From an uncultured Clostridia bacterium (GTDB lineage: Bacteria > Bacillota_A > Clostridia > Oscillospirales > Oscillospiraceae), in NCBI GenBank assembly GCA_947307375.1, contig CAMZIX010000021.1, positions 1 through 14,542 of the forward strand: 14,542 nucleotides of DNA, written 5' to 3'. Shown piece by piece: positions 1,990 to 14,481 of this stretch (within the stretch, counting starts at the first letter, position 1; each line of letters begins with the position of its first letter). A program made the position numbers and the translations under genes. A model generated the notes under the pieces. It was not told where the DNA came from and made no database searches. It saw only the letters and a list, made by a program, of their open reading frames with translations.

Positions 1990-3264
1990 CTATTCCATGT
2001 CATCCCGATGCCGGTAGGGCGTATTCTGCCACTTGCCGCCCTGATAACGGTGCAGCTCTTCGGTCAGGTGGTCCCACAGGAGCACATCGCCCGCGTCGGG
2101 GTAGAATTCCAGAAAACGCCCGTCGACAAATGTGTAGAAGCGGCTGATGTCCGTACACATGCCGTAGGTGGGCAGCTGGGCGCTGGGGATCGAAAAGCGG
2201 AACGGTTTCTCTTCCAGCGTGCCTTCAAAGCGGAGGCCCCCGTGATCCAGCGTCAGCATGCCTTCGCCGCGGATCAGCGAGGTCGCGTCCCCGGTCAGCG
2301 GCTTGTGCTCGGGAAGGACGCCGACCCGGACATGCCCGCGATGGCAGAAGTCCGGCTTCCGCACTTCCTCCGCCGCTCTCTGCCGTTCCAGGATCGTCCA
2401 GTCCGTCACCAGTTCCGGGCAAACGCTGCCCTCTCCGGCATGGAGCCGGTAGGTCTCGTCCAGCTCCACACGGTTGCCGCAGCGGCGGCAGCTCATGGTA
2501 TTGCCCCGGCAGTCCATCTCATAGACGGCTCCGCACTTCGGGCAGAGATACAGCAGCGTATCCAGCTTTTTCGCCATCTGTCCCCTGCCGTCGAAACGGA
2601 CCCGGGCCTTTTGGTTCCACATATAATCGTCATGCGCCAGCAGCCGGTTCATCGTGTCTTCGATCTCTTCCGCAGACAGCTCCTTCAGCTGCTCGGCCGT
2701 AAACATCCGGTCCACCACGACCTCGATGCGTCCCTTCCTCTGATCCAGGCAATGCTTGGTATAGGTCAGATAGCCGCCGGAGATCTTGGAATAGTAGACG
2801 GGGACGCCCAGCTTTTTCAGAAGCTTGGCCCCGCCGGGGATCACCGGCTGCGCCATGCCGGTGATGGAGCTCATGCCCTCCGGCATCAGACAGATATTGC
2901 CGCCCTGATGGATCACACGAAGGATCTGCCGCATCGCATGGGTATCCGGCGTAAAGTTTTTCTTGGGAATGACCTGCATGGTCGGCAGGAGCCAGCTGGT
3001 CGGGAAACGGAAAAATTCGTTGTACCCGACCACGTAATTGAGGCGTTTGGGATAGCAGGGCGGCGCGGTGAACTGGTAATCCACGCGCGAGGCGTGATTT
3101 GCGATCATGACTATGGAGCCGGGCTCCTCAGAAGGCCGCGCCCGGTAGGTGAAATGCGTATTGCTGGATTTGTTAAGGAGCTTCGTCACCTGCATCAGGA
3201 GCCAGTACAGCCCCCGGGGCGGCGTCGTTACGTTTGTCTGTTCCACTCTTTCGTCGATCGTCAT
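1990..3264 (-). CDS. PlsC/LPLAT-family acyltransferase with zinc ribbon and extra C-terminal domain
   Basis: This 424-aa protein is probably a membrane-associated lysophospholipid or glycerol-phosphate acyltransferase. The start at 3264 has a perfect AGGAGG seven bases upstream; a longer frame to 3303 lacks one. The LPLAT signature H-x4-D is seen at His57-Asp62 (NHASRVD), with PEG at 128-130 as the phosphate-binding motif and a later PVYYSK strand. Residues 241-244 (CPKC) and 259-262 (CRRC) form a zinc ribbon, which simple PlsC enzymes lack. The last 140 residues form a separate beta-rich domain I do not recognise (possibly PH/GRAM-like). That makes it about 180 residues longer than a standard PlsC of about 240. 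It follows the DUF218 lipoprotein gene by 35 bases and should be co-transcribed with it. Substrate and acyl donor cannot be read from sequence. Confidence 0.88.
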   Translation of the reverse strand: MTIDERVEQTNVTTPPRGLYWLLMQVTKLLNKSSNTHFTYRARPSEEPGSIVMIANHASRVDYQFTAPPCYPKRLNYVVGYNEFFRFPTSWLLPTMQVIPKKNFTPDTHAMRQILRVIHQGGNICLMPEGMSSITGMAQPVIPGGAKLLKKLGVPVYYSKISGGYLTYTKHCLDQRKGRIEVVVDRMFTAEQLKELSAEEIEDTMNRLLAHDDYMWNQKARVRFDGRGQMAKKLDTLLYLCPKCGAVYEMDCRGNTMSCRRCGNRVELDETYRLHAGEGSVCPELVTDWTILERQRAAEEVRKPDFCHRGHVRVGVLPEHKPLTGDATSLIRGEGMLTLDHGGLRFEGTLEEKPFRFSIPSAQLPTYGMCTDISRFYTFVDGRFLEFYPDAGDVLLWDHLTEELHRYQGGKWQNTPYRHRDDME

Positions 3265-3299
3265 GGGGATTCCTCCTGAAAACCATTGTCTTTCGCGGG

Positions 3300-4172
3300 T
3301 CAATGCAGCGGGGGCAGCTCGTGGATGTCATAGGTGTCGTAATAGATAGCATACGCCGTATCCATATCGCCGGACAGTTCGATCAGCGCGCCCGCCTGGA
3401 ACATGGTCGACAGGCTGCCCGCAGGAGCCTTCCATGCGGCGTTGGAGACGACGTGCACGCTCTCCGCTCCTGCCGTCGGAGCCCGCAGGATGGCCTCCGC
3501 CTCGAACAGAAGCGTGCCGGTCGCGATGTGATAGTCGCTGGACACGATCGCGAGCTCTGTGACCTGCGGACAGCGCCCCGCCAGAATATTAAAGGTGTAA
3601 ACGGCATTCTGCGCCGTCGTGAGAGAGCGGTCCTCCACGATGATACGCTCCGCCGCGACCCCGTTTTCCAGCAGCCATTCCGCCATTTTTCCCGCCTCTG
3701 TGGCGGTCTCGTTCTCCGCGGCCGTCCCGCCTCCGGTACAGACGATCAGCGCGTTCGGATACTTCTCGGCGCTGGCGGCGACGACCTTCAGGCGTTCGAT
3801 CAGTTCGTCGCGCATCGTTCCGTCGGGATTGAGCTGGAATCCGAGCGCGACGATGCACAGCTCGTCCGTATCCGGCAGACCGTCCGGCAGCACGCCCTCG
3901 TGGATCGTCAGCTCCGTGTTCGCCGATTTCCACAGCGTCATGATGCGCTCCCAGCGATCCGCCGCATCAGCGTCCGCCGCCCGCAGCTCTTTCAGCAGCG
4001 ACTGGACTCGCTCATCCGCTTCGCCGCCATAGCTGCCGTAGTCGACCACCAGCTCCTCGATGATCTCCCGGCGGTCTCTTTTTTCCTGCTTCTGCCCGCA
4101 GCCGGAGCAAAAGCAAACGGCAAACAGGGCCAGAATCAGACAAAGGGCCCGGATCCGGAAAGCAGTTTTCAT
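3300..4172 (-). CDS. DUF218 (YdcF/SanA-like) probable lipoprotein
   Basis: This is a 290-aa exported protein. The start at 4172 follows GAGGTG by five bases; the frame stays open further upstream to 4463, but that region holds the promoter and leader. Residues 1-25 form a signal peptide (positive N-terminus, hydrophobic LCLILALFAV core) ending in CSGC, with Cys25 the likely lipidated residue. The Cys at position -3 of this lipobox is unusual. Residues about 104-255 match the DUF218 fold: IVALGFQ, then VCTGGG, then a NETATEAGKMAEWLLENGV stretch, IIVEDRSLTTAQNA and IVSSDYHI. DUF218 proteins such as SanA and YdcF are linked to envelope integrity, but their reaction is not settled. Pairing with an acyltransferase gene fits an envelope role (inference). 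It is the first gene of a two-gene unit with its own promoter and a structured leader. Confidence 0.87.
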   Translation of the reverse strand: MKTAFRIRALCLILALFAVCFCSGCGQKQEKRDRREIIEELVVDYGSYGGEADERVQSLLKELRAADADAADRWERIMTLWKSANTELTIHEGVLPDGLPDTDELCIVALGFQLNPDGTMRDELIERLKVVAASAEKYPNALIVCTGGGTAAENETATEAGKMAEWLLENGVAAERIIVEDRSLTTAQNAVYTFNILAGRCPQVTELAIVSSDYHIATGTLLFEAEAILRAPTAGAESVHVVSNAAWKAPAGSLSTMFQAGALIELSGDMDTAYAIYYDTYDIHELPPLH

Positions 4173-4380: not shown

Positions 4381-4614
4381 TTATATACCTGCTGTATTCT
4401 CCTGCGGGAGCGGAGCGGGAAACGACGATATAAAGAAAAGCGAAAGCACAGAACCGGGATCATCCCTCCGTTTCTGTGCCTTCTTTCTGTTATAGGCTTT
4501 CGGATTATCGGGCCTGCGCGTCACCGGGCTGATCGCCCAGAGCGTCCGCCCGAGCGCGTCCAGCTCCCGCTTTTTCTTTTTCGAGAGCTTTTCGTACGGG
4601 ATAAACTTTTCCAT
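4381..4614 (-). CDS. Small basic protein with in-frame terminator; candidate ribosome-rescue factor
   Basis: This is a 77-aa protein. The ATG at 4614 follows AGGAGG by eight bases. Residues 1-50 are strongly basic (SKKKKRE at 11-17, PVTRR at 30-34, NPKAYNRKKAQKRR at 37-50). I have seen small clostridial proteins of unknown function that share this PVTRxPxNPKAYNRKKA pattern. An intrinsic terminator (4446-4479) covers codons 46-57, with its U-rich tail over codons 57-62, so a terminated mRNA would end before the stop codon at 4381. Residues after the hairpin (SLFFISSFPAPLP...) turn hydrophobic. E. coli ArfA and B. subtilis BrfA are small basic proteins made from such non-stop mRNAs and kept low by tmRNA; in ArfA a hydrophobic C-terminal tail is lost by truncation. 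The function here is inferred from gene layout and composition, not homology. The gene has its own near-consensus promoter. Confidence 0.8.
   Translation of the reverse strand: MEKFIPYEKLSKKKKRELDALGRTLWAISPVTRRPDNPKAYNRKKAQKRRDDPGSVLSLFFISSFPAPLPQENTAGI
4446..4479 (-). terminator. Intrinsic terminator inside the coding frame of the 77-codon gene
   Basis: GCACAGAA (minus strand, 4472-4479) pairs with TTCTGTGC (4446-4453), with an inner GGGA/TCCC stem and a short loop. It is followed by CTTTCGCTTTTCTTTATA. RNA polymerase would release around 4430-4445, which is 16 to 20 codons before the stop at 4381. The U-tract is interrupted by C and G, so strength is uncertain. Confidence 0.65.
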
Positions 4615-4648
4615 CGGGTAAACCTCCTTCTTTCGCATGGTCGAGGAT

Positions 4649-4678
4649 ACTATAGTCGATCAAAGCCCGTCCTGTCAA
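4649..4678 (-). promoter_or_regulatory. Strong sigma-A promoter for the 77-codon gene
   Basis: A perfect TTGACA (4673-4678) and TATAGT (4649-4654) are 18 bases apart on the minus strand. The -35 box overlaps the TGA stop codon of the upstream DUF4234-like gene (4675-4677). The leader to the ATG at 4614 is about 28 bases. Confidence 0.85.
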
Positions 4679-8278: not shown

Positions 8279-11200
8279 TCAGAAGGTGTAGATCGTATCC
8301 GAAATCAGCTCGACGGGTCCGGCCTTTTCAACGGATAGGCCGCTGAGCGTAAGGCTGTTCGGTGCCTCGCAGTTGCCGTGGGAGATCTGGATAACGAGCC
8401 GGGTATCCTGCCTCGGGTAGACGAGGTACTCGACGGTCTCTCCGTCGGGACCGGCAGTCAGACCATAGATCGCGCCGAGGCCCTTCTCCTCGTTCCCGTT
8501 GTTGAAGCAAACTTCGAAGGGCGCGGGACTGTCGGCCGTGACATCCATGCGGATGCGGTATTTCTGTCCGGCCTTGAGCGTCACACCGGTCTCGACAAAG
8601 AGCTTGGATTTCCAAGGCTCCCTTCCTGCCGCCGGTGTTTTTTCGATGCGGACCGTCGCATGGTCGGGCGACTTTTCCAGACGCTCGGTATAGTCGGGCT
8701 GCTTGTCAAGCGTGGTGACTTCCTTCTTTTCCGACGTCTGGACGTAGTTGAAGCTGACTTCTTCGATCTTCACGTTGCTGACGGTGTAGGTGTTGCCGTC
8801 GGTACCGTCGGTCTTGCCGAAGCGCAGCTGTAAGACAAGCTCGCCCTTGCTCGGACCGGGATAGATGATCTGCGAGAAGCTCGTCTTGCCGCCCGCCAGC
8901 GCCGGGCCGAAGAACTGGCCGTAAGCGCCCTCGGAGGAACCGTCGAAGAAGAGCTCAAAGGTGCTCTGCGGCTTGGCGGCATCGAGATCGAAGCTGACGC
9001 GGTAGCCCTTGTCCTTCTTAGGCGTGAAGCCGGTTTTGACGTTGAGCTTGACGTTCCAGGGATTGCGGTTTTCGGCCGGGGCCTGGATGATCTGGAGCTC
9101 GGCGGAGCTTGCCGCCTTGTTGAGCGCGGCGATGTATCCGTCATCGGCATTGTAGCTGAAGCTGCCCACGCTGTCATAGCTGAAGGAGGGCAGGACGCTC
9201 TCGCCTTCGCCTTCGGCCATCTCCTCGACCTTTACGTTGCTGACCGTCACGGTGCAGGGAGCGGTCGCCCAGCCGAGGTTGAACTGCAGGGTCAGGGTCG
9301 CGGCTTCCTCCGGCGTGCCCTCAAAGACCGCCGTTTGGGCCGCAGACGAGGCGTGCAGGCCGTAGAGCGCGCCAACGCCCTTCTCCACGGCGCCGTTATT
9401 GTAGCAGACCTCGTAATCGGTCTCCGCGCTCGCGCTCACATCGGCGCTGACGCGGTAGTGCTTGCCGGCCTCCAGGGCGATGCCGGTCTCCACGAAGAGC
9501 TTGACCTTCCAGGCTTCCCCGTTGTCGGGCGTCTTGGAAATGGCAAGGCTCGCGGAGCTGCCGTCGCCGGAAAGCGCGGCCGCATAGTCCTCATGCGCCC
9601 AGAAGTTGACGTTGCCGCTGTCGCCGGCGGTCAGCGGATCGGTCAGCAGATTTTCGCCCAGAGTCTTCGCGCCGAGCTTGACGACGGAAATGTCACTGAC
9701 TGTGATGCTCTTGCCCGCCGCCACACGGTCGAACTTGAGCAGGATGTTCAAATTGCCGCTTGTCGTCGCATTGATGATATTTCTGACTGTGACCGGGCCG
9801 TCCCAGACCAGGGTACCCTGGTCGCTGTATTCGTAGTCTCCGCCGCCCTCGCGCGCGTAGCAGACGTCCCAATCGCCGCCGTCAACATTCATGTCGACCT
9901 GATAGGTATTGCCGGCTTCCAGCGCGACGCCCGTTGCGGCGCAGAGCACGATGCCGGACGCAGGCGTGTTGATCGTAACGGTGGCGCTCGTTCCGTTGCC
10001 CGTCAGGGCAGCGTCCGTATCTTCGGGAGTCAGGGAGAAGGAGTTGTATTTCGTGCTCTCCGCAGACGTCTGCGGGTAACCGAAGCCGGACATGCTGACC
10101 GGAGTGAAGGAGCCGCCGAGTTTTATCACGCGGATATCACTGATCGTCACCTGGTCGCCGACCTGGCGGGCGCCGATCAGCGACACGATCTCCACCATGC
10201 CGTTCTGACCTTCAAAATCCTTGCTTCTGATCTCCTGCTTGTCGTCCGTTTCGATGCGGCCGGTGTCGCCGTAGAACGTTTCATCCCATCCGGCCACGCC
10301 GCTGCCGTCCTTGAAGTGGACGAAGCAGTCTTTCGCGCCCTCAATGTTCGCGACGATCCGGTAGGTGCTGCCCGGTTCCAGCGTCACTTCGGGCTTGGTA
10401 TACATCTTGAGCTGCCAGTCCACGCCGGCGCCGCGGTTCACGATCGTGGCCGTCGCGCCGGTAGCGCCCGGGGCGATCGTCGCCTCCGTTCCGGAGTCGG
10501 CAATATTGTTCTCGACCCATGCGCCCAGGTTGTAACTCAGAACGGTATCCGTTTCTTCGGAAACCGTGATGTCCTTGACGGTGATGCTGCTGCCTGCCGC
10601 CACGCGGTCAAACTTGAGCAGGATGTTCAGTTTGCCGGTCGTGGTCGGTTTGCAGATATTTCTGACCGTAAACGGGCTGTCCCAGACCAGGGTGCCGGAA
10701 TCACTGTACTCGTAGTCTCCGCCGCCCTCGCGCGCATAGCAGACGTCCCAGTCGCCGCCTTCCACGTTCATATCGATCTGGTAGGTCTTGCCCGCCTCGA
10801 GCTGCACGCCCGTCGCGGCGCAGAGTACGATGCCGCTGCCCGCCGTGTTGACGGTCACGGTGGCGCTCGTACCGTTGCCGGTCAGCGCTGCGTCAGTCCC
10901 TTCGGGAACGGTCAGCGAGAAGGAATTGTTCACCGTGCTGCCCGGAACGGACTCCGGATACGCGAGGCCGGAGAGGTTGGAGGAGGCTTCTCCCTCGCTG
11001 ACCTCGCACAGCTTCAGCTCGCTGACGGTGACGGTATTCCCCGCCGCGCTGTTGCCGAGCTGGAAGACCAGCACCAGCTCGCCGCAGCCGGAGTCGGGAG
11101 CGACGAACTCGGAGCTGTATTCACCCGAGCCGTTCAGGCCCCACTGTCCGCCGTAGAGCTCGGAGGCGGCCGCGTTCTGATACAGAATCTCGAATTCGCC

Positions 11201-13048
11201 CGTATCGGCGGAGGCGTCGACTTTCGCGCTGAACTGATATTTCTTGCCCGCTTCCGGCGTCACGCCGGTGCGGATGATCATCTTCGAACTCCAGACGCCG
11301 CCGTCCGTGCGCGCCTGGGTGACGTTCAGCGCCGCCGAGCTGCCGGAGGCCGTGAGCGTCTGCTCGACCCCATCGCTGTGCTCTTCACTGACATTGCCGT
11401 TGCCGCCGGTGCTGAGGGCGACCTCGCCGATCGTCTTGTACTGCGGCTCAAGCTTCTCCACGCTGAGATTGCTCAGCGTGACCGTGTTGCCGTCGGCCGT
11501 ATCCGTTTTGCCCATCTGCAGGCGGAGCGTCAGCGGCCCGTGGCTCACGTCCGGCGTGACGATCAGCTCGACGCTGTCCGTACCGCCCGCCGTCAGGCTG
11601 CGGCCATAGAGCGCGCCGTAGGCGTTTTCATAGTCGCCGTCGAAGCAGGCCTCGTACTCGGCCTGGTCGCCGGTGGAGGCCAGGTCAAATTTGATGCGGT
11701 AGGTTGCGCCGGCATCCAGCGTCAGGCCGGTGGCGGCATAGAGCTTCGCCTTCCACACGCCGCGCTCGCCAGCGTCGGCCGGCGCCTGCGTGATCTTCAG
11801 CGTCGCGCTGGATGCGCCTTCCTCGAGGCTGACGACGTAGCCGTCGTCATGACCTTCATAGACCGTATCGGTGCCTGCGTAGGAGAAATTCGTCAGCGGG
11901 ACGTTCTTGAAAGACGTGGGGATCGCGGCGCTCAGGATCCTGCCGGTGGCGACCGAGGAATCCAGGGCGAAGCCGGCCGGAAGCACATTGGCATATCGGT
12001 CGGTGAAGGTCTCTGCGCGGAGATTGCCAATCGTGACAGTTGCGCCGGCGGGCGCCTCGCCGAGCGAGAACTGCAGCACAAGTTCGCCGCCGCCGTCGAC
12101 TCCGGTGATCACGGCCTCGACGCTCTTCGTTTCGCCTGCGGCCAGGCTCTGGCCGTACAGGGCGCCGTAACCTTTCTCCTCGCCGCCGTTATTGAACAGG
12201 ACTTCAAAGGGCAGATCCCGGTCGCCGCTGATGTCGGCCGCAATGTGATAACGCACGCCGGGCTCGGGGATCAGGCCGGTCCGGATGAAAAGTCTGGATT
12301 TCCACACCCCGGGCTCCGAAGAAACAGCACGGTAGTTGACGCTGACCGCGTCCGCGGCGCGCGTGAGGACAGAGTCATAGTCCTCGTCGTGTGCTTCATA
12401 GACGGCCGCCTCGTGCGAAAAGTTCACGGGTGCGGGCAACACGTTTTCATAATCGACCACGTCCGCATATTCCTCGACCTCGATCTCCGTAAAGTCGATC
12501 GTAAAGGGCGGGAGCATACCGAGCTGCAAATCGAGATAACTCGAGCCGCCGGAGGCGATCAGAATGCCGGTGACGCTGTTCTCGCCCTTCTCGATCGCAA
12601 ACTCCTGGAAATCGCCGAACTTGACCTTGCCGGCCACATCCGAGCGGAAACGATAGGTCACGCGGTAATCCCGCCCGGCAACGGTAGGATAGCTGCACTC
12701 AAGCTTGACGTGCCAGGCCTCTCCGTCCGTTTCCGTGGCGACGAAGCGGTACACGCCGTCTACGGCCTCGCCGCTGCCCGCAACTGCATCGCCCTCGAAT
12801 TTGGCGGAAAACAGGTCGCTCTTCACGACGTTCTGCCTGATTCTTTTGTTGACAGTCCACAGGGGCAGGAAACCCGCGCCGAGCGCTTTCGCTTCCGGAG
12901 ACGTGTCAAGCAGCGCCGCCTCCTGCGGAGCCGTGTCCGTCCCGGCCGCTTTCTCCGCTTCGGTCGGCTGCACGGCAGCCTGGCCGCAGCTGGAAAGCAG
13001 CAGAGAGGCCAGGAGAATGATCGCAATCAAGATTTTTGCGCGCTTCAT
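8279..13048 (-). CDS. Giant lipoprotein of ten tandem CBM4/9-like modules
   Basis: This is a 1589-aa surface lipoprotein. The ATG at 13048 follows GAGGAGG; the frame continues to 13120 without support. The signal peptide MKRAKILIAIILLASLLLSSC ends at Cys21 (LSSC lipobox), followed by an Ala/Glu/Thr linker to about 56. Ten repeating units follow: 57-201, 202-353, 354-542, 543-697, 698-837, 838-991, 992-1132, 1133-1290, 1291-1457 and 1458-1589. Most share a W-x-x-KL strand, (T)G-x-x-x-x-x-G-x-x-YR, an NNG...YGALYG segment, LVLQFxLG and a final VTVSNLxVE strand. This is the jelly-roll layout of CBM_4_9 carbohydrate-binding modules. No catalytic domain is visible. Units 5 and 7 are a distinct subtype and recent copies. 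A role in holding glycans at the cell surface is inferred; no polysaccharide-utilisation genes are adjacent. Confidence 0.9.
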   Translation of the reverse strand: MKRAKILIAIILLASLLLSSCGQAAVQPTEAEKAAGTDTAPQEAALLDTSPEAKALGAGFLPLWTVNKRIRQNVVKSDLFSAKFEGDAVAGSGEAVDGVYRFVATETDGEAWHVKLECSYPTVAGRDYRVTYRFRSDVAGKVKFGDFQEFAIEKGENSVTGILIASGGSSYLDLQLGMLPPFTIDFTEIEVEEYADVVDYENVLPAPVNFSHEAAVYEAHDEDYDSVLTRAADAVSVNYRAVSSEPGVWKSRLFIRTGLIPEPGVRYHIAADISGDRDLPFEVLFNNGGEEKGYGALYGQSLAAGETKSVEAVITGVDGGGELVLQFSLGEAPAGATVTIGNLRAETFTDRYANVLPAGFALDSSVATGRILSAAIPTSFKNVPLTNFSYAGTDTVYEGHDDGYVVSLEEGASSATLKITQAPADAGERGVWKAKLYAATGLTLDAGATYRIKFDLASTGDQAEYEACFDGDYENAYGALYGRSLTAGGTDSVELIVTPDVSHGPLTLRLQMGKTDTADGNTVTLSNLSVEKLEPQYKTIGEVALSTGGNGNVSEEHSDGVEQTLTASGSSAALNVTQARTDGGVWSSKMIIRTGVTPEAGKKYQFSAKVDASADTGEFEILYQNAAASELYGGQWGLNGSGEYSSEFVAPDSGCGELVLVFQLGNSAAGNTVTVSELKLCEVSEGEASSNLSGLAYPESVPGSTVNNSFSLTVPEGTDAALTGNGTSATVTVNTAGSGIVLCAATGVQLEAGKTYQIDMNVEGGDWDVCYAREGGGDYEYSDSGTLVWDSPFTVRNICKPTTTGKLNILLKFDRVAAGSSITVKDITVSEETDTVLSYNLGAWVENNIADSGTEATIAPGATGATATIVNRGAGVDWQLKMYTKPEVTLEPGSTYRIVANIEGAKDCFVHFKDGSGVAGWDETFYGDTGRIETDDKQEIRSKDFEGQNGMVEIVSLIGARQVGDQVTISDIRVIKLGGSFTPVSMSGFGYPQTSAESTKYNSFSLTPEDTDAALTGNGTSATVTINTPASGIVLCAATGVALEAGNTYQVDMNVDGGDWDVCYAREGGGDYEYSDQGTLVWDGPVTVRNIINATTSGNLNILLKFDRVAAGKSITVSDISVVKLGAKTLGENLLTDPLTAGDSGNVNFWAHEDYAAALSGDGSSASLAISKTPDNGEAWKVKLFVETGIALEAGKHYRVSADVSASAETDYEVCYNNGAVEKGVGALYGLHASSAAQTAVFEGTPEEAATLTLQFNLGWATAPCTVTVSNVKVEEMAEGEGESVLPSFSYDSVGSFSYNADDGYIAALNKAASSAELQIIQAPAENRNPWNVKLNVKTGFTPKKDKGYRVSFDLDAAKPQSTFELFFDGSSEGAYGQFFGPALAGGKTSFSQIIYPGPSKGELVLQLRFGKTDGTDGNTYTVSNVKIEEVSFNYVQTSEKKEVTTLDKQPDYTERLEKSPDHATVRIEKTPAAGREPWKSKLFVETGVTLKAGQKYRIRMDVTADSPAPFEVCFNNGNEEKGLGAIYGLTAGPDGETVEYLVYPRQDTRLVIQISHGNCEAPNSLTLSGLSVEKAGPVELISDTIYTF
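9683..10018 (-). repeat. Internal repeat, copy in unit 7 of the lipoprotein
   Basis: It encodes residues 1011-1122 and matches the copy at 10562-10897 at 94 of 112 residues by my count. The two copies are 879 bases (293 codons) apart, so one unit plus its neighbour forms the period. Long stretches such as GGDWDVCYAREGGGDYEYSD are identical. Confidence 0.9.
10562..10897 (-). repeat. Internal repeat, copy in unit 5 of the lipoprotein
   Basis: It encodes residues 718-829. It is the partner of the repeat at 9683-10018. Both copies lack the tryptophan strand of the other modules and carry an SGIVLCAATG strand instead. Confidence 0.9.
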
Positions 13049-13160
13049 CGTATGTTCCTCCTCGCTTCCGTCACCCGTCCGCGCAAAAACGCAGCGAACA
13101 GGCTTTGAATAAATATGCAAAATGTAAAAAAACGTAAACTAAATATTTTGATACAAATTA

Positions 13161-14032: not shown

Positions 14033-14154
14033 ACATTATTCATTATTTTCTGCAACATCGTGCAACAAAACAAGGGTAAAATAGGGTAAAAAAGAGTCAA
14101 ATAGGACAAAATATTCAATTGCGCTCAATTGTTTAATGCCTTAAAAAAGTTATG
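14033..14154. other. AT-rich spacer with short repeats
   Basis: This stretch separates the tRNA terminator from the 101-codon gene. It contains TGCAACATCGTGCAACA (two TGCAACA copies), several GGGTAAAA/AGGACAAAA-like repeats and the inverted pair CAATTGCGCTCAATTG. No convincing promoter pair is seen. Short repeats beside tRNA genes could mark an old attachment site. Confidence 0.35.
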
Positions 14155-14190
14155 AAAAAGCCCTGAAACCTCTCGATTCCAGGACTTTTT
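14155..14190 (-). terminator. Terminator of the rRNA-tRNA operon
   Basis: A continuous 16-bp stem with a few G-U pairs (14155-14170 with 14175-14190) and a GAGA tetraloop lies 2 bases past the tRNA-Trp CCA end. Its 3' arm ends in GCTTTTT, followed by CATAACTTTTTT. Confidence 0.9.
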
Positions 14191-14192
14191 CA

Positions 14193-14268
14193 TGGCAGGG
14201 GAAGAAGGCTTCGAACCCTCGGCCTACGGTTTTGGAGACCGCCGCTCTACCAGCTGAGCTATTCCCCT
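14193..14268 (-). tRNA. tRNA-Trp (CCA anticodon)
   Basis: A 76-base cloverleaf with acceptor stem AGGGGAA/TTCCCCT, D-arm AGCTCAGCTGGTAGAGC, anticodon loop CTCCAAA and T-arm GGTTCGAA. The discriminator is G and the 3' CCA is encoded. It is last in the three-tRNA cluster, 9 bases after tRNA-Met. Confidence 0.97.
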
Positions 14269-14277
14269 ATATGAAAT

Positions 14278-14353
14278 TGGTGGACCGTCAGGGACTCGAA
14301 CCCCGGACCGACCGGTTATGAGCCGGCTGCTCTACCAACTGAGCTAACGGTCC
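14278..14353 (-). tRNA. tRNA-Met (CAT anticodon, elongator type)
   Basis: A 76-base cloverleaf with acceptor stem GGACCGT/ACGGTCC, anticodon loop CTCATAA, T-arm GGTTCGAG and encoded CCA. The fully paired first base pair and the GGACC start match elongator tRNA-Met rather than initiator tRNA. A lysidine-modified Ile tRNA cannot be fully excluded by anticodon alone. Confidence 0.95.
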
Positions 14354-14367
14354 ATATCCATGAAAGG

Positions 14368-14395
14368 ATTGCCGCCACGATATCGTGACGGCAAT
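14368..14395 (-). other. Near-perfect palindrome between tRNA-Asn and tRNA-Met
   Basis: Two 14-base halves are complementary except at one position, which is a U-G pair in the minus-strand RNA. The centre is CACGATATCGTG. There is no U-tract, so a processing hairpin is more likely than a terminator. Confidence 0.6.
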
Positions 14396-14405
14396 ACCGT
14401 TTCTC

Positions 14406-14481
14406 TGGCGCCCCCTGTAGGACTCGAACCTACGACCCTGCGGTTAACAGCCGCATGCTCTACCTATTGAGCTAAGGAGGC
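14406..14481 (-). tRNA. tRNA-Asn (GTT anticodon)
   Basis: A 76-base cloverleaf with acceptor stem GCCTCCT/AGGGGGC (one G-U pair), anticodon loop CTGTTAA, T-arm GGTTCGAG, discriminator G and encoded CCA. It is the first tRNA after the 5S rRNA. Confidence 0.97.

Follow-up and report, generated by a model that had tools for sequence, protein, structure and literature searches.

What is the role of a short, basic reading frame of an uncultured Clostridia bacterium that carries a transcription terminator ahead of its own stop codon? The frame lies within a stretch of 14,542 nucleotides (contig CAMZIX010000021.1; the whole stretch is called the window here), and a sequence-only reading of this stretch had proposed that it is transcribed into a non-stop mRNA and encodes a ribosome-rescue factor of the ArfA/BrfA type. 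To our knowledge, the small basic proteins with a non-stop gene layout are ArfA and BrfA, both of them rescue factors. The architecture of the gene, its conservation among relatives, its distribution and its resemblance to the known rescue systems are considered in turn below.

Organization of the Window Gene

The gene forms a compact unit on the (-) strand, to which all coordinates of this section refer. A -35 hexamer TTGACA (4673..4678) and a -10 hexamer TATAGT (4649..4654), separated by an 18-nt spacer and together scoring 11/12 promoter matches, precede a Shine-Dalgarno sequence AGGAGG (4623..4628) located 8 nt upstream of the ATG at 4614, which opens an ORF of 77 codons plus the stop codon (4381..4614, with the stop at 4383-4381); the promoter and ribosome-binding site assigned to the gene in the sequence-only reading are both present. 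The ORF listing also offers a version of 85 codons starting at 4638, which is disfavored because this ATG precedes the ribosome-binding site and sits approximately where transcription should begin; the inner ATG is also the start in most relatives among the matches listed.

The in-frame terminator first noticed upstream of the stop codon of this gene exists. Its hairpin, delineated by folding and by the family alignment, occupies nucleotides 132-173 of the ORF (4442..4483), is followed by GCTTTTCTTT and leads into the U-rich tract GCUUUUCUUU (4432..4441). The hairpin region folds with -26.9 kcal/mol (z = -3.1), a value equaled by 1 of 200 shuffles; a simple terminator scanner missed it, and the stem contains an internal loop. 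The terminator had originally been placed across codons 46-57, and while its presence in frame stands, the stem in fact covers codons 44-58. Release of the RNA is predicted 7-9 nt past the stem, at codon 60-61, with an RNA 3' end at approximately codon 60, that is approximately 17 codons short of the stop and within the 16-20 codons first estimated.

The predicted 3' end divides the gene into a conserved core (codons 1-60, 4435..4614), the portion expected in both mRNA and protein, and a read-through tail (codons 61-77, 4384..4434) that comparison with the relatives shows to be non-conserved. Residues 1-60 have a charge of +9.5 and a pI of 10.4, in line with the basic character originally ascribed to the part before the hairpin; the part beyond it, described as hydrophobic, is a 17-residue acidic and mildly hydrophobic tail (GRAVY 0.24), a hydrophobicity that does not count as evidence because the relatives do not share the tail. 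Scans of the protein against the Pfam and NCBIfam libraries gave chance-level matches only (best E 0.022 and 0.03), the family protein matched no release-factor family in either of them, and a PDB profile search with the family returned nothing better than E = 0.55. A GGQ motif is absent from the translated ORF. AlphaFold2 predicts helices at residues 12-22, 38-41, and 43-51 with low overall confidence (pTM 0.34), being confident only across approximately the first 20 residues.

The neighbors on the same strand are a gene for a DUF4234 protein upstream and one for a DUF218 protein downstream; no mobile gene was present among five scanned neighbors and no rtcB among the scanned neighbors of the window copy. 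Elsewhere in the window, an ORF of 1,613 residues (8279-13120) by eye begins like a lipoprotein and contains many repeated modules, and its product looks like a surface carbohydrate-binding protein. In another single ORF (1990-3303), an acyltransferase domain occurs together with a putative zinc ribbon whose matches are weak. Immediately after a cluster of tRNA-Trp, tRNA-Met, and tRNA-Asn genes (14152-14481) comes a long hairpin whose tail is T-rich.

The Non-stop Layout in the Family

One protein search with the window protein produced 1,263 relatives (E <= 0.01), and the details given here rest on 120 listed of these. Among the matches listed, total lengths range from 60 to 130 residues and conservation runs to approximately residue 60, the position of the U-tract, past which the tails form many unrelated groups common only to close relatives. 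The position of the stop codon was scored with a strict terminator scan (dG <= -13, at least 5 T in 8, single hairpin) on a span of 190 nt that starts at codon 34 in family members and surrounds the stop in controls, the controls being 355 ORFs of the same loci that lie outside the family and have 200 codons or more. With members too short for scoring dropped, the stop was found at least 8 nt past the stem of a strong terminator in 126 of 166 unique members and 0-7 nt past it, inside the U-tract, in 11; the other 29 comprise 23 in which no strong terminator was detected, 4 whose stop falls inside the hairpin and 2 whose stop precedes it. Homologues lacking an in-frame hairpin were what the sequence-only reading had named as a refutation, and this check favors its proposal, with the hairpin ahead of the stop in 126/166 members and 11 borderline cases. 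Expressed differently, of the 143 members in which a strong terminator was detected, 137 remain open through the end of the stem, whereas in the controls the same scan found a terminator in 65 of 355 ORFs, located after the stop in 58, before it in 5 and enclosing it in 2. In a few members (L046, L057, L099, L105, and L161) the scan scored a different hairpin located farther downstream. The stricter scan was applied to family and controls because a looser one called 52/355 control genes non-stop; under the looser scan, 142 members divided into 113 non-stop, 11 U-tract, 6 whose stop lies within the hairpin, 2 whose stop precedes it, 9 with none and 1 too short.

After clustering of the members, groups that are mostly of the non-stop or U-tract kind number only 63 of 81 at 75% core identity, 26 of 41 at 65% and 11 of 19 at 55%; at this last level, seven of the eight remaining groups have a single member and one has three. 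Between codon 31 and the stem end, the other two frames hold stops in 71 and 97 of 118 members, a set preselected for a stop after the stem in which the zero of frame 0 arises by construction. Past the terminator the first in-frame stop comes early (median 9 codons vs 24 and 16 in the other frames), perhaps as a safeguard for read-through RNA or as a by-product of downstream coding frames. A-rich and T-rich runs border the hairpin of the window gene by eye, and it could terminate in both directions.

These last features suit an explanation in which the terminator merely overlaps the end of the gene in a compact or two-way arrangement, the stop codon is reached often enough and there is no tmRNA control; the A-rich/T-rich flanks, the early in-frame stops and the 11 members with the stop inside the U-tract would all agree with it. 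Such an overlap is nevertheless improbable, given that the control genes with a terminator have it after the stop in 58 of 65 cases, that 137/143 family members reach the stem end with no stop, and that the tails past the U-tract belong to many unrelated groups, even though the closest relatives share them.

Selection on the Hairpin and on the Protein

Two-sided compensatory changes affect 14/14 base pairs in an alignment of 58 hairpins, hand-chosen from 123 and all of the general type of the window, with 111 compensated cells vs 31.4 in shuffles and 92.2% of cells pairing. Relatedness inflates such compensation counts; slid-register controls of the hairpin alignment, which retain the relatedness, gave 5-8 pairs. 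The divergent subfamilies possess different stems at the same location. A chance hairpin is ruled out by the control-gene comparison together with the compensatory changes. With respect to the protein, codons 2-26 give a pN/pS of 0.20 across 313 pairs (80-97% identity, pS < 0.7, pairs not independent of each other), so that the family core is under purifying selection and an ORF that is spurious or acts as RNA only is ruled out. The expression signals recur throughout the family as well: an 11/12 promoter match lies within 110 nt upstream of 29% of 141 members vs 0.2% of mononucleotide shuffles, a 9/12 match in 56% vs 9%, and an SD-like motif was found in 128/141 members.

Distribution and Copy Number

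A genome scan located 253 encoding places, 80 of which were kept, with titles that are mostly those of Oscillospiraceae and other uncultured rumen or gut Clostridia. A search seeded with a divergent relative gave 518 proteins, and the names among the matches listed include Butyrivibrio (sp. VCB2001 and YAB3001) and Eubacterium cellulosolvens. In genome samples that each include the chosen center genome, itself a known holder, the gene was present in 39 of 120 genomes of one family, in 34/297, 25/196, and 4/30 genomes of the orders of G014, G366, and G756 respectively (one of the last four at E = 6e-4), in 6/392 and 6/371 genomes of the class in two largely overlapping draws, and in 5/199 genomes of the phylum. 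The record titles suggest Oscillospirales and Lachnospirales as the two main orders. In 50 genomes chosen as gene holders, 38 carry one copy, 10 carry two, one carries three and one carries five. The five copies belong to a draft genome (G026) and are found on contigs 138, 60, 84, and 52, two of them approximately 900 bases apart; they could represent a real amplification or a mixed bin. A phage collection searched with the window core as sole query gave 3 weak matches, one of them in a Brevundimonas phage, and a plasmid collection searched with the relaxase-linked type as sole query gave no match.

Members with an Ordinary Stop Codon

A number of relatives end at an ordinary stop codon. In one such type (L110, L112, L113, L114, and L116) the ORF overlaps, in a different frame, the start of another ORF common to these loci (MTEQELNKRIAE... 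in L113); an Xre-like regulator was noted by eye near this type, and a MobL relaxase gene is found near the terminator-less L113. A second group of stop-coded paralogues (L179-L182) occupies three places in the genome G1137 and one in G1158, each of which carries another copy besides this group; L179 and L180 contain KTWGNLKPTERIIPNKKK, and L181 and L182 are more diverged.

The relaxase neighbor, the patchy distribution and the presence of at least two copies in 12/50 genomes are what would be expected of a gene of mobile elements, selfish or defense-related, whose chromosomal copies are remnants. The single copy in 38/50 genomes, the promoters enriched upstream of members, the purifying selection on the core and the five scanned neighbors of the window copy, none of them mobile, all speak against a mobile origin and make it very improbable.

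Another association, seen in several divergent members, concerns the RNA ligase gene rtcB. In L157 (1264-2674) rtcB is followed by a relative with an ordinary stop that starts 1 nt after the rtcB stop codon, and the two are likely to form an operon; the L157 record is filed as phage, and an adjacent Sir2-like ORF (by eye) suggests bacterial DNA. rtcB was also located within approximately 2.3 kb of L118, L107, L027, and L156, all with a terminator in the strict scan, and of L044, which is of the same type and did not pass that scan; it adjoins L111 at a contig end. These 7 loci (L157 included) come from an exploratory count, since rtcB was looked for after the neighbors of L157 had suggested the link. 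In a wider set rtcB occurred in 4/60 loci, three of them known beforehand and deliberately included, which compromises the Poisson value for this set; the only new one was L240, a wider stretch in which rtcB is approximately 2.5 kb away from L105. All four rtcB ORFs scanned (4/4) matched PF01139. If the link with rtcB is real, the stop-coded copies would lie outside the control exerted by tmRNA, an arrangement similar in principle to the RtcB2-PrfH repair/rescue operon (PMC9223846). A broader proposal, tentative and rather doubtful as a whole, is that a large, independently evolved rescue family encoded by non-stop genes protects gut and rumen Clostridia whenever trans-translation is overwhelmed and that its stop-coded, tmRNA-free copies may have been adopted by mobile elements and by RtcB repair operons as a permanent rescue or ribosome-repair partner.

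Comparison with Known Rescue Factors

Control of arfA is described as a terminator before the stop codon that yields a non-stop mRNA, with an RNase III site as well (PMC6299226). An mRNA ending before the in-frame stop is likewise predicted by sequence for the window gene and its family, and ArfA is also short, basic and devoid of GGQ in the sequence used; unlike ArfA, the family occurs in Clostridia and sometimes has several copies per genome. At the level of sequence no relationship was detected: PF03889 (ArfA) matched none of 40 core members, and hhalign gave probabilities of 0.6% and 0.4% when the ArfA side was a narrow alignment built from 14 proteins. A likeness seen by eye between NPVTR..KAYNRKK of the family and DPLFR..KGSYMRK of ArfA received no profile support with this narrow ArfA alignment. 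ArfA similarity was found neither by Pfam nor by profile comparison, which fits the "independently evolved" member of the original suggestion.

The closest parallel in layout is BrfA (YqkK of B. subtilis), whose gene carries a rho-independent terminator in the coding region and whose product, as described, has approximately 62 of 71 residues (PMC6881298), closely matching the approximately 60 of 77 predicted here, also in a Gram-positive host with an in-frame terminator. According to PMC6881298, BrfA occurs in part of the Bacillaceae only; among the PDB chains that the family profile hit at E values up to 10, none carried the name BrfA, and BrfA was otherwise compared by description. ArfT of Francisella, which recruits release factor RF1 or RF2, is reported in the account of PMC6299226 to have no terminator or RNase III site ahead of the stop; compared by description, the window gene differs from arfT by its terminator before the stop. 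The window protein differs from ArfB/YaeJ in having no GGQ catalytic motif. Finally, the RtcB2-PrfH repair/rescue operon is described as encoding a rescue protein beside the RtcB ligase (PMC9223846), and some relatives are likewise found near rtcB; PrfH is however described as an unusual class-I release factor (PMC1586002), whereas the family protein matches no release-factor family. By sequence, then, the family is neither ArfA nor ArfB-like, and on present evidence from its layout the gene would be controlled like those of ArfA and BrfA.

Trans-translation and the Proposed Function

Among 30 hand-picked host genomes, tmRNA was found above cut-off in 23 and SmpB in 26; RF-1-domain proteins were present in 30/30, with two matches in 25 (RF1 and RF2 were not told apart). 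ArfB above cut-off was found in 0/30, and the weaker matches to the ArfB model in 30/30 hosts lie mostly within long ORFs that have the size of release factors. All 4 genomes with no SmpB fall among the 7 with no tmRNA above cut-off, as expected if drafts miss a contig, and draft incompleteness is the likely reason for these absences. The presence of tmRNA and SmpB in most hosts makes repression by trans-translation possible. Together with the 126/166 (plus 11) members of non-stop type and the compensatory base changes, the trans-translation genes of most sampled hosts leave the proposed non-stop mRNA, and with it the non-stop design of the family, strongly supported by sequence.

The gene probably encodes an independently evolved backup rescue factor, comparable to ArfA and BrfA and under the control of trans-translation. 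Transcription would end at the in-frame terminator and generate an mRNA without a stop codon, at whose 3' end ribosomes would stall, and tmRNA-SmpB would normally tag the product of approximately 60 residues for destruction. When trans-translation is overloaded or lost, this product would accumulate and bind non-stop ribosomes in their A site, placing the basic NPxTRxP..KAYNRKK segment in the empty mRNA channel; having no GGQ motif, it would depend on a release factor, and by analogy with ArfA and BrfA it may recruit RF1 or RF2 to free the peptide. Rescue activity of the family protein is what we infer from this analogy. Several observations count against the backup-factor reading: the 2-5 copies in 12/50 genomes are unexpected for a simple backup factor, the early in-frame stops after the terminator look as if the read-through product mattered, 29/166 members have no strong terminator ahead of the stop, and eight of the 19 groups formed at 55% core identity are not mostly of the non-stop or U-tract kind. 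The failure to detect similarity to ArfA or a family match above cut-off, the low-confidence structure prediction and the 7/30 hosts with no tmRNA above cut-off point in the same direction.

Non-stop control predicts regulation by tmRNA and not a biochemical activity, and a protein under the same control, made only while tmRNA is saturated, could have a job other than triggering peptide release, as a ribosome-binding stress regulator, a hibernation factor or an RNA-repair partner; the rtcB genes near some members and the multi-copy genomes allow such other roles in translation stress. This is unlikely, though it deserves serious attention, considering that ArfA and BrfA, which share the layout, are both rescue factors and that the 0/30 hosts with ArfB above cut-off leave room for a backup role.

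Implications

In a survey that covered over 15,000 genomes, ArfA is described as restricted to Gammaproteobacteria, part of the Betaproteobacteria and 10 species of the B. subtilis group, with arfB missing from most Gram-positive phyla including Firmicutes (PMC11633108), and the authors of the BrfA study considered that many bacteria may hold rescue systems yet to be identified (PMC6881298). In the open-access PMC literature, the scope of the search, which did not extend to preprints, none of the titles among the matches listed reported such a rescue factor in Clostridia. The analysis provides a search rule, namely small basic ORFs with compensated in-frame terminators, by which further candidates can be sought. 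Backups of this type could blunt drugs aimed at trans-translation. If the preferred reading of a backup rescue factor is true, the family would represent another instance in which this regulatory circuit has arisen and would fill part of the rescue gap in the abundant Clostridia of gut and rumen.
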